A DNA stretch of 64,000 nucleotides from Verrucomicrobiia bacterium (lineage in GTDB: Bacteria; Verrucomicrobiota; Verrucomicrobiia; Limisphaerales; CAIMTB01). A program made the position numbers and the translations under genes. Shown here piece after piece: positions 42,360 through 48,924 of the stretch (the first letter of the stretch is position 1; each line of letters opens with the position of its first letter). Under the pieces are notes generated by a model that saw nothing but the letters and a program-made list of their open reading frames with translations, was not told the origin of the DNA and ran no database searches. The DNA lies in assembly GCA_019634625.1 (NCBI GenBank), contig JAHCBA010000021.1, positions 1-64,000 on the forward strand. The letters are read 5' to 3'.

Positions 42360-45209
<2,850 letters not shown>

Positions 45210-45371: not shown

Positions 45372-46397
45372 TCAGTAGGCGGCCTGCGCCCCGCCGATCC
45401 GCCGCTTCTTCATCCACGGCATCAGGCCGCGAAGCCGCTCGCCCACCTTCTCGATCGGATGCTTCTGTCCCTCCTTCAGCAGCGCGTTGTACCGGCGGTA
45501 CCCGCCCTGGTATTCCTTCACCCAGTCGCGGGCGAACTTGCCGGACTGGATCTCCTTCAGGGCCGCCTTCATGCGCTTCTTCACCGAGGCGTCGATGATC
45601 TTCGGCCCCACCGTCACATCCCCCCACTTCGCCGTCTCCGACACCGAGAACCGCATCCCGCTGATTCCCGATTCGTTCATCAGATCCACAATGAGCTTCA
45701 GCTCATGGAGACACTCGAGATACGCCATCTCGGGCGAGTACCCCGCCTCCACCAGCGTCTCGAAGCCCGCCAGCACCAGCGCGCTGCAACCGCCGCACAA
45801 CACCGTCTGCTCGCCGAACAGGTCGGTCTCCGTCTCTTCCTTGAACGTCGTCTCGATGACCCCCGCCCGCGTTCCGCCAATTCCCTTGGCCCACGCCAGG
45901 GCGACCTTCTTCGCCTTCTTGCCCGGATTCTGGTACACCGCGATCAGGCTCGGCACGCCCTTCCCCTCCACATACTGCCGCCGGACGATGTGCCCGGGAC
46001 CCTTCGGCGCCACCAGGATCACATCCACGTCCTTGGGCGGCACCACGGTCTTGAAATGCACCGCAAACCCGTGACTGAACAGCAGTGTCTTGCCCTTGCT
46101 CAGGTTCGGCGCGATGTCGCTCTCGTACACCGACGGCTGCTTGGTGTCCGGCAGCGCGACCATGATCACGTCGCCAAGCCGCACCGCCTCGGCGGTCGGA
46201 ACCACTTCGAATCCCATCTCCTGCGCGACGGCGATCGACTTGCTCCCCTCGTAGAGTCCCACGATCACCCGCAGGCCCGAGTCCTTGAGATTGAGCGCGT
46301 GGGCGTGCCCCTGGGATCCGAAACCAAGCACCGCAAGGGTCTTGCCCTGCAGCACTCCGAGATCCGCGTCTTTGTCCGAATAGAGTTTGGCTGGCAT
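45372..46397 (-). CDS. ilvC: Ketol-acid reductoisomerase (class I)
   Basis: A 341-residue class I enzyme of valine/isoleucine/leucine synthesis, converting acetolactate or acetohydroxybutyrate to dihydroxyacids. The NADPH site is [20 protein letters not shown], with GLYEGSKS at the cofactor loop. Metal/substrate residues occur in [24 protein letters not shown] and SETAKWGD. It follows ilvN by 67 bases on the same strand and probably shares the regulatory region at 46983-47148. Confidence 0.97.
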
Positions 46398-46464: not shown

Positions 46465-46938
46465 TCAGGATCGAGGCAGCGCCACCTGCCCGGTCCGGGT
46501 GAGGTCGCAGATCCCGAAACAGGTCATCAGTTCGATGAACTTGGCGAGCTTGGTCTCCCCGCCCGTGATCTCGATGGTCAGGCTGTCGGGCTGCACATCG
46601 ACCACCTTGGCCCGGAACAGTTCCGCCATCTGGCAGATCTCCGCCCGGTTCGCCGGCTCGGCCTTGACCTTCACCAGCACCAGTTCCCGGTCAATGTAGT
46701 CGCCCTGCCCGTAGTCGATGACCTTCACCACATCGACAAGCTTGTTCAACTGCTTGACGATCTGATCGACCGTCGCGTCGTCCCCACGGGTGACAATCGT
46801 CATCCGCGACAGGGTCGCATCGTGGGTCGGGGCCACATTGAGCGAGTCGATGTTGTACCCCCGCCCGCTGAACAGGCCCGCCACGCGGGTCAGCACCCCG
46901 AACTTGTTTTCCACCAGCACCGAGATCGTGTGTCGCAT
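46465..46938 (-). CDS. ilvN: Acetolactate synthase small (regulatory) subunit
   Basis: A 157-residue regulatory subunit giving valine feedback to acetolactate synthase. The ACT domain ([33 protein letters not shown]) is followed by the C-terminal domain ([36 protein letters not shown]). The catalytic subunit gene is not in the window, which is unusual since ilvB normally precedes ilvN. A leader-peptide attenuator stands upstream. Confidence 0.95.
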
Positions 46939-46982: not shown

Positions 46983-47011
46983 AAAAACCCGCCTCCGGTG
47001 CGGAGCGCGGG
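46983..47011 (-). terminator. Terminator hairpin in ilvN leader (attenuator)
   Basis: On the minus strand, CCCGC-(G)-CTCCG pairs with CGGAG-GCGGG around a CAC loop (10 bp, one bulge) and is followed by TTTTT. It lies 37 bases after the leader stop and 44 bases before the ilvN ATG. It may end the upstream unit or act as an attenuator. Confidence 0.75.
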
Positions 47012-47048
47012 CGATCAGTTCGACAGAGTTCCAGTCGCGAACCGCCCG

Positions 47049-47111
47049 TCAGTCCCGGACAACCGGGATCTCACGTACGATTACCGATGGGAACGCCGCC
47101 GTGCGGTTCAC
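47049..47111 (-). CDS. Putative Val/Ile-rich leader peptide for ilvN-ilvC
   Basis: A 20-residue open frame starting with GTG. Its second half is VIVREIPVV followed by RD and TGA; five of nine residues in that stretch are Val and two are Ile, the products of the pathway. Those codons sit in a potential pause hairpin: TCCCGG-TTGT-CCGGGA at 47053-47068. The GTG is about 1-2 bases from the predicted transcription start, so the leader may be translated without a Shine-Dalgarno site. The frame and codons are seen; the regulatory role is inferred. Confidence 0.55.
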   Translation of the reverse strand: MNRTAAFPSVIVREIPVVRD

Positions 47112-47118
47112 GGGCGCG

Positions 47119-47148
47119 ACCCTATCGATCCCTTGCGACCCCAGTCAA
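47119..47148 (-). promoter_or_regulatory. Sigma70-like promoter for ilvN leader
   Basis: On the minus strand TTGACT (5 of 6 to the -35 consensus) at 47148-47143, an 18-base spacer and TAGGGT (-10, 3 of 6) at 47124-47119. The implied transcription start is at about 47112, just before the leader GTG. Confidence 0.45.
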
Positions 47149-47204: not shown

Positions 47205-48689
47205 TCACGAACCGCCGCCCCGCTTGATCTCGCGCAGGCGCCGCGCCTCGGGCCGGCCCTTGTAGGCATCGTCCAGCGGATAGCAGCCGCTCGGCAGTCC
47301 GTTGCGCGGCGCCGTCGTGCAGTCGCTGAACGTCCGGCAGATCAGCCGTCCGTTCAGGACGCCGGTCTCGAAGGTATCCGCCGGCAGATGCGGATAGCTC
47401 AACACCATCCGGCCCAGCCCAATCATGTCCGTCCATCCCCCCCGCACCGCCGCCTGCGCCACGTGCGGCAGGTACTCCTGCAGATAGGAATAGCCGGTCC
47501 CAATCACCACCGGGCGGTTGGCCATCCCCGCCAGATGCCGCATCACCCGCCGCACCTCGTTCATCTGCCGCGCCACCCCAACCAGCGGATCCTCCGGAGG
47601 CTGATACCCGTCGCTCGGAGGATAGGCCGCGGGCCGTTGAATGTGCGGATTGTAATAGGGCGACCCCGCGGTGAGGTTCAGCAGCTTCACCCCCAGCCCG
47701 GCACACAGTTCCGCCAGACGCAACGTCTCGGTCAGATCCGCCTCCACCGGACACTCCGCATTCACCCCAAACCCATATCGGTACGGCAGGCAGTGGCCGT
47801 ATTCGACCGGCACCCCGGGTCCGGGCCGGCCGGGCTCGGACAGGGCCGGATCCGGCCGGAACGGAACAAAGTCGAAGGCACTCAGCCGCACCGCGAGATC
47901 GATCGGGTTGCCGTCCGCCCGAATCCCCCGCACCACCTCGCGCAACATCCGGGTCCGGTTCTCGAAGCTGCCCCCGTACCTCCCCGGCCGCGTGTGCGCC
48001 CCGAGAAGCTCATGCAGCAGATACCCGTGGCAGTGCTTGATGTCGATGAAGTCCGCCCCGGCGTCCCACGCCAGGCGTGCCGCCCGGACGAAATCGCCCC
48101 CCAGGTCGTCCAGCTCCCCGTCGCTGAACACCTGGTCGTCGCGGGTCACCCCGAACCGCTCGTCCAGAAGCGGGTGCCGGAAGGCGACGCGCGGTTCGAA
48201 ACGCGCCTTGTCGTTGGGACGGCAAAACCGCCCGGAGTGGGTCAGTTGGAACCCGACCGCCACCCTCGCATCAGCGCCGAACTTCGCCGCATGGGCCGCC
48301 CGCAACTCGCCGAGCAGCGACGCGATCGCGCCAAGGTTCTCCGCCGAGAGGATCAATTGGTTCGGATTCGCCCTGCCGTCCGGCCGCACCGCCATCGCCT
48401 CGCCGCCGAAGATCACCGAGGCCCCGCTTTCCCCGAACCGGCGCCACCGCCGCCGCACATCGTCCGTGGGCTTGCCATCGGTCGTTCCATCCCAGCCTTC
48501 CATCGGGTGAACGACCCAGCGGTTCCGCGGCCCGATGCCGTTCAGCAGCAGGCCCTCCACCGGTCGGGCCAGCGGGGATTCCGCGCCGGGGATGGGAGCG
48601 TCGTCGGTCGGCAACTCAATCGCCAGGGCGCCCACATGCGCCCGGAAATCGGCGATCGTCTTCAAGGTGGGAATGCGGATCAGTTTCAC
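47205..48689 (-). CDS. NADH:flavin oxidoreductase, Old Yellow Enzyme family
   Basis: A 494-residue FMN enzyme that reduces activated C=C bonds. Barrel signatures: NRWVVHPMEGWDGT, VGFQLTHSGRF, DFIDIKHCHGYLLHELLG and RYGGSFENRTRMLREV. There is no C-terminal 4Fe-4S/FAD extension, so it is the short class. The GTG at 48689 (MKLIRIPTLKT) is the likely start, since further upstream the translation is low-complexity Gly/Trp/Arg; no good ribosome site was seen. Its stop lies about 56 bases upstream of the ilvN promoter. Confidence 0.85.
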   Translation of the reverse strand: MKLIRIPTLKTIADFRAHVGALAIELPTDDAPIPGAESPLARPVEGLLLNGIGPRNRWVVHPMEGWDGTTDGKPTDDVRRRWRRFGESGASVIFGGEAMAVRPDGRANPNQLILSAENLGAIASLLGELRAAHAAKFGADARVAVGFQLTHSGRFCRPNDKARFEPRVAFRHPLLDERFGVTRDDQVFSDGELDDLGGDFVRAARLAWDAGADFIDIKHCHGYLLHELLGAHTRPGRYGGSFENRTRMLREVVRGIRADGNPIDLAVRLSAFDFVPFRPDPALSEPGRPGPGVPVEYGHCLPYRYGFGVNAECPVEADLTETLRLAELCAGLGVKLLNLTAGSPYYNPHIQRPAAYPPSDGYQPPEDPLVGVARQMNEVRRVMRHLAGMANRPVVIGTGYSYLQEYLPHVAQAAVRGGWTDMIGLGRMVLSYPHLPADTFETGVLNGRLICRTFSDCTTAPRNGLPSGCYPLDDAYKGRPEARRLREIKRGGGS

Positions 48690-48924
48690 GGCGCGGTGAC
48701 GGACCGTCAGCCTCCCGAACGACCCCGGCTTTGTCGAGACCCACCCGCCCCCGGACCAATCCCCGCCACGCCACCCAGGACCCCAATCTCCCCACCCCCG
48801 GCAATCACCCGCCCTGCCCCCCAAATCGCCCAAAACTTCGTGCATATGCACGGGTTTTCTGCCCATTTGACCGGGGCCTCCGGCTTTTCCCCCGGTCGGC
48901 CCCGGTCCCCGCCCCCGCCCTCCG

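Follow-up and report, generated by a model that had tools for sequence, protein, structure and literature searches.

A probable transcription attenuator with a valine-rich, predicted leaderless leader peptide before ilvN-ilvC in Limisphaerales (Verrucomicrobiota)

From its sequence, a Limisphaerales bacterium appears to sense valine shortage through a valine-rich reading frame that opens its ilvN-ilvC message. The frame lies in the window, i.e., the whole 64,000-nt stretch of DNA analyzed here, and belongs to what is very probably a transcription attenuator that works through the ribosome, in the manner of ilv and trp, with a leader peptide predicted to be leaderless. Indeed, a frame of regulatory codons, an intrinsic terminator and an antiterminator that excludes it were found together ahead of two genes of the same pathway, ilvN and ilvC. 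An attenuator had been proposed at this place in a first-pass annotation of the window, and that reading is strongly supported by the comparison of relatives, the short frame being conserved as a frame and the alternative hairpins being conserved as well. The features of the locus are as follows.

47205-48866, minus strand: oxidoreductase gene upstream, ending 56 nt before the -35 box.
47119..47148, minus strand: promoter, TTGACT (47148-47143), 18-nt spacer and TAGGGT (47124-47119), read from the sequence.
47049..47111, minus strand: leader-peptide frame, predicted leaderless, 20 codons, GTG at 47111, VNRTAAFPSVIVREIPVVRD, TGA at 47051-47049, read from the sequence.
47053..47068, minus strand: hairpin over the Ile-Pro-Val-Val codons, TCCCGG/CCGGGA, core of the 1:2 protector hairpin, from the fold and order-wide pairing.
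47040..47048, minus strand: antiterminator 5' arm (segment 2), CGGGCGGTT, directly 3' of the stop codon, from its pairing with 47016-47008.
47008..47016, minus strand: antiterminator 3' arm (segment 3), GATCGCCCG, which overlaps with the 5' arm of the terminator, from pairing and conservation.
46983..47011, minus strand: intrinsic terminator (segments 3:4) with a T5 tract, from folding energy and alignment.
46465..46938, minus strand: ilvN, acetolactate synthase small subunit, the controlled gene (TIGR00119, 206.9 bits against a cut-off of 56.9; NF008864, 228 bits).
45372..46397, minus strand: ilvC, ketol-acid reductoisomerase, the second gene, after a 67-nt gap (TIGR00465, 438.6 bits against a cut-off of 226).

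The identities of ilvN and ilvC were taken from NCBIfam equivalog models, and a search of the gap between them for terminator-like or promoter-like sites found none. The same strand carries ileS (isoleucine--tRNA ligase, 42360-45209, minus strand) 162 nt past ilvC. As the interval between these two genes also holds no terminator-like site, ileS may be under the attenuator too.

Direct reading of the minus strand bore out the promoter and the 20-codon GTG frame of the annotation. The GTG stands 7 nt past the -10 TAGGGT, and transcription is predicted to begin at the GTG or a few nt away from it. The window promoter fell below calling strength in a generic sigma-70 consensus scan, so that its support comes from conservation: the promoters of the relatives combine a -35 of TTGACC or TTGACG, a 16-18 nt spacing and a -10 of TANNNT. 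Over both strands of the 64-kb window, the combination of a promoter with a leaderless frame of 12-30 codons matched once, at this leader. A Shine-Dalgarno-like GAAGGA lies a few nt 5' of the ilvN ATG and none lies at the leader frame. Beyond its start codon, the window peptide contains 4 Val and 2 Ile, i.e., fewer Val codons than most relatives.

The hairpin announced over the Ile-Pro-Val-Val codons is present as TCCCGG/CCGGGA inside 47068-47053. The predicted terminator was also recovered, with its TTTTT (46987-46983) and its distance of 44 nt to the ilvN ATG (46938); its stem, described as 10 bp, consists of 9-10 pairs with one bulge (CCCGC-g-CTCC / GGAG-GCGGG, 47011-46988). It folds at -17.3 kcal/mol (z -3.5). 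The suggested GGGCG/CGCCC antiterminator proved real and extends to 9 bp plus an inner CGAC/GTCG, with an energy of -18.6 kcal/mol (z -3.55, reached by 0/200 shuffles). Because CCCG at 47011-47008 belongs to both structures, antiterminator and terminator are mutually exclusive. When the full leader is folded, 47101-47021 forms one long 1:2 hairpin and the terminator is left free.

These parts suggest the following mechanism. The transcript would start at or beside the GTG, and a ribosome would load at its 5' end without a Shine-Dalgarno sequence and decode the Val/Ile codons. With ample charged Val-tRNA (and Ile-tRNA), the ribosome would proceed as far as the stop codon, where its leading edge would mask 47048-47040; with segment 2 covered, segment 3 would pair with segment 4 and transcription would end at 46983. 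A free segment 2 would capture 47016-47008, the terminator would be blocked and ilvN-ilvC would be transcribed. An untranslated RNA should terminate, since the whole leader folds as the long 1:2 hairpin plus the terminator: the frame would fold with segment 2 and the terminator would form by default. If a ribosome is taken to cover 26 nt with the decoded codon in the middle, as was done for M. tuberculosis ilvB1 (PMC13236596), it would extend to about 47038 when at the stop codon (47051-47049) and cover all of segment 2; when stalled at Val-17 (47063-47061), it would extend only to about 47050 and leave segment 2 free. With these predicted footprints, the arrangement would fit the classical switch without adjustment.

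In order to place the locus among its relatives, ilvN upstream regions were collected from Limisphaerales, giving 109 sampled loci. The comparison of related ilvN and ilvB upstream regions, which the annotation had named as a way to check its proposal, revealed conserved Val codons together with hairpins. The arrangement is shared by 4/4 genomes of the same genus with diverged peptides (VFRFAAIDLVVGVVPVVRG, VTRIAVASLLVVVVPVIGG, VMRTLAPVTDRDVVRVIPV and VIRSAASSLPVVVVPVIGG), and the leader plan was found at 47 of the 109 ilvN loci, again with diverged peptides, MNLLISAVQVASVVVVD and MKFLASPPPVVRVVVVD being typical of the order. A strict pattern (promoter, start codon 6-11 nt past the -10, frame of 12-30 codons, terminator and at least 35% V/I/L) was matched by 37/109 real ilvN upstream regions, against 0.01 expected per dinucleotide-shuffled set and 0/443 control windows. 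These counts are conservative, because some relatives with the whole element fail only the strict -35: L119, L121, L123-L128, L131 and L133, all near relatives, carry a GTTGCY-type -35 together with the leader, antiterminator and terminator. Besides, a covariance model of the element (R1) matched in 49/112 genomes of the order at E<=0.1 and in 33/75 separately fetched GTDB loci. Its strong matches lie nearly all immediately 5' of ilvN, usually as one copy per genome.

The coding nature of the frame was assessed on 43 aligned leaders. Valine accounts for 232 of their 686 codons (34%), spelled GTC 98, GTA 71, GTT 40 and GTG 23 times; the other two frames contain 2% and 1% valine and many stops. 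The annotation had named valine and isoleucine together as the sensed amino acids. Valine is upheld, and across the order the signal is mainly valine rather than both. Mean base entropy is 1.17, 1.29 and 1.56 at codon positions 1, 2 and 3, the third being the most variable, and Val codons vary synonymously with Val retained. Frame-0-only valine and variable third positions are the pattern predicted for selection on Val codons, and not on RNA shape alone. This also bears on the idea that the leader is another type of RNA, such as a riboswitch, a T-box, a ppGpp riboswitch or a protein-bound leader, in which the frame would be incidental. ppGpp riboswitches do precede ilvB genes in some bacteria (PMC10272879); synonymous change with Val kept, however, points to selection on the codons of the peptide, and no Rfam family fits the window or the leaders of the relatives. 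In a search of the window and the leader loci with Rfam 15 (4227 models, ilvB-II not necessarily among them), nothing reached the gathering threshold and only chance-level matches appeared at E<=10. T-box and riboswitch models gave no match in the window or the leader loci, the sole match being an unrelated cobalamin riboswitch (RF00174, 85.8 bits) near ilvN in a genome of the same genus (L013, 1033-1198, minus strand). Such an RNA is thus extremely unlikely here.

The position of the start codon bears on translation initiation. In 43/43 leaders it lies 6-11 nt after the -10, and 7-9 nt after it in 40 of them, and transcription usually starts about 6-8 nt after the -10. A Shine-Dalgarno-like tetramer precedes the leader start in just 3/43. 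Because of this near-fixed spacing and the near absence of Shine-Dalgarno-like sequence, we infer that the leader RNA begins at the start codon or within a few nt of it, i.e., that it is leaderless. Alternatively, the attenuator could be translation-dependent with a transcript starting further upstream, ribosomes reaching the frame by read-through or through an entry site that escaped detection. The weakness of the window promoter in the generic scan, TAGGGT being a weak -10, would speak for this arrangement. It is nonetheless quite improbable given the spacing and the scarcity of Shine-Dalgarno-like sequence in the ilvN leaders, none of the 43 having an internal alternative start with a Shine-Dalgarno sequence; the same spacing was seen in 36/36 ilvB leaders, where the finder required 6-11 nt. 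For leaderless initiation, the near-fixed promoter-to-start spacing provides an argument drawn from sequence only, in a group for which metagenomes are almost the sole source of knowledge.

Pairing of the alternative helices was scored on alignment A1 (43 sequences). For the antiterminator, 86.9% of cells are paired, a share that drops to 33-46% if the arms are slid by 1-3 columns; in the relatives, this helix takes the form GCGRCCTG/CAGGYCGC, with compensatory changes. This is illustrated by pair 36-72 (A-U 13, G-C 13, G-U 12) and pair 37-71 (C-G 33, U-A 5). Covariation is limited to few pairs since the sequence is highly conserved. At the level of single loci, the antiterminator duplex is better than duplexes of shuffled arms (p<=0.05) in only 22/43 (window p 0.01), as the arms are short and GC-rich. 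The terminator is paired in 95.9% of cells with an invariant CCCG/CGGG core, and the hairpin of the Val codons and stop region is kept across the order, its two main helices being paired in 78-87% of cells. The conservation of these structures also has to be weighed against another reading, namely that hairpin and T-run merely terminate the upstream oxidoreductase gene and that the short frame arose by chance; the oxidoreductase gene is indeed on the same strand and ends shortly before the -35. However, the longest upstream ORFs of 40 leaders were divided into 33 clusters by sequence, while the element tracks ilvN. In addition, a promoter separates the oxidoreductase gene from the hairpin, the frame is kept as a Val-rich coding sequence and the antiterminator is conserved. 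The case that the annotation had set against itself, a hairpin kept only as the terminator of the upstream gene, did not hold, and a terminator of that gene was rejected as hardly credible on account of conservation beside unrelated upstream genes.

The ilvB gene is unlinked to ilvN-ilvC in these genomes and has its own Val-rich, predicted leaderless leader, of different sequence, at 36 of 50 loci examined, e.g., MLFVLRQVSLVVVVVTEDAVGSCCG followed by the terminator CCCACGGCTGGAAACGGTCGTGGGTTTTTT. Its antiterminator 5' arm lies inside the tail of the frame (AVGxCR), and the duplex of tail and terminator scores better than shuffles (p<=0.05) in 35/36, the exception being the genome of the window (p 0.365), whose ilvB leader is MSDRQPMPPGLLVLVVVSTGLAGGVSCR (L247, G000:C20:5000-6500, positions 1007-1131). 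Upstream of leuA, a Leu-rich, predicted leaderless leader followed by a terminator, e.g., VNRNPGLLLLSSALLLSCAAAGF, was found in 12 loci (L267, L268, L269, L272, L276-L278, L293, L295, L391, L394 and L396). The terminator arm GAACCCCACTGCC is matched by a complementary frame tail, GGCAGTCGGGTTC, with p<=0.05 in 8/12; in the genome of the window, the region upstream of the leuA candidate meets the contig end and lies outside this comparison. For trpE, the same pattern gave no leaderless leader in 30 loci. The independent ilvB and leuA versions suggest a regulon, and it is likely that Limisphaerales run branched-chain amino acid (BCAA) synthesis genes by leaderless attenuation through three sequence-distinct designs (Val for ilvN-ilvC, Val for ilvB, Leu for leuA) that share only their plan. 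This plan consists of a promoter, a predicted 5'-terminal start codon, regulatory codons, an antiterminator arm at or just past the frame end and a terminator. If so, leaderless initiation would be the standard way to load attenuator ribosomes in Limisphaerales, outside Actinobacteria.

The mechanism as such is classical. Proteobacterial ilv, leu and trp attenuators, such as those of E. coli ilvGMEDA and leuABCD, carry regulatory codons in a leader peptide and follow a 1:2, 2:3, 3:4 hairpin logic. The present element has the same hairpin logic; theirs, however, come with a 5' UTR and a ribosome-binding site, whereas here the frame is seemingly at the RNA 5' end. Leaderless or near-leaderless BCAA attenuators are known from Corynebacterium. 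In Corynebacterium glutamicum ilvBNC (ilvL; ilvB-II motif), the transcription start and the start codon of the leader are one nucleotide apart, and the 15-aa Val/Ile/Leu leader MTIIRLVVVTARRLP is associated with a terminator, an antiterminator and an anti-antiterminator (PMC11857589, PMC10272879). Both systems have a start codon near the 5' end (predicted here), a BCAA leader and a terminator/antiterminator pair, but they belong to different phyla and their RNA sequences are unrelated. The C. glutamicum element precedes ilvBNC, whereas that of Limisphaerales precedes ilvN-ilvC, with ilvB elsewhere under its own leader; the window also differs in that its leader stop codon is followed immediately by the antiterminator arm. 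Mycobacterium tuberculosis ilvB1NC combines a BCAA uORF ('LVVI' codons) with a terminator/antiterminator switch and an abundant terminated RNA of ~120 nt (PMC13236596). A BCAA frame and such a switch are found here as well, but that type is restricted to Actinobacteria and differs in gene order and sequence. Actinobacterial BCAA attenuator candidates had been listed in 2005 (PMC1262725). The ilvB-OMG and Leptospira ilvB motifs are structured leaders with similarly BCAA-rich upstream frames (PMC10272879), set apart from the present element by organism and by the lack of an Rfam match. In the open-access literature searched, no such attenuator was found described for Verrucomicrobiota, in agreement with the first-pass annotation. 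Translation-dependent attenuation with a predicted leaderless leader peptide would extend to Verrucomicrobiota, with order-wide comparative support, and the comparison lets codon, structure and promoter predictions be tested together. The surprise lies in the place of occurrence and the consistency of leaderlessness, not in the mechanism.

Outside the order, R1 found no strong match in 289 phylum-wide genomes. Two weak matches (E about 1e-3) were seen at G215:C1:2024001-2024089 (L242) and G264:C255:13721-13860 (L243), with no kinship implied. A simple search for leaderless frames at the ilvB and ilvN loci of a 59-genome phylum-wide sample (best-match loci only, strict promoter pattern) gave no convincing BCAA leader. 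Within the order, maximum parsimony applied to a fast tree of IlvN required 17 gains or losses of the element, from which no history was drawn. About half of the genomes do without it, usually with a TTGACC promoter directly before ilvN; hence, the element is not essential. The ilvN regions free of a leaderless frame (about 50 genomes, e.g., L034, L061 and L094) have a short predicted 5' UTR with no clear Shine-Dalgarno sequence, which often ends in a small hairpin, e.g., CCCGTTTAACGGG, just before ATTT-ATG.
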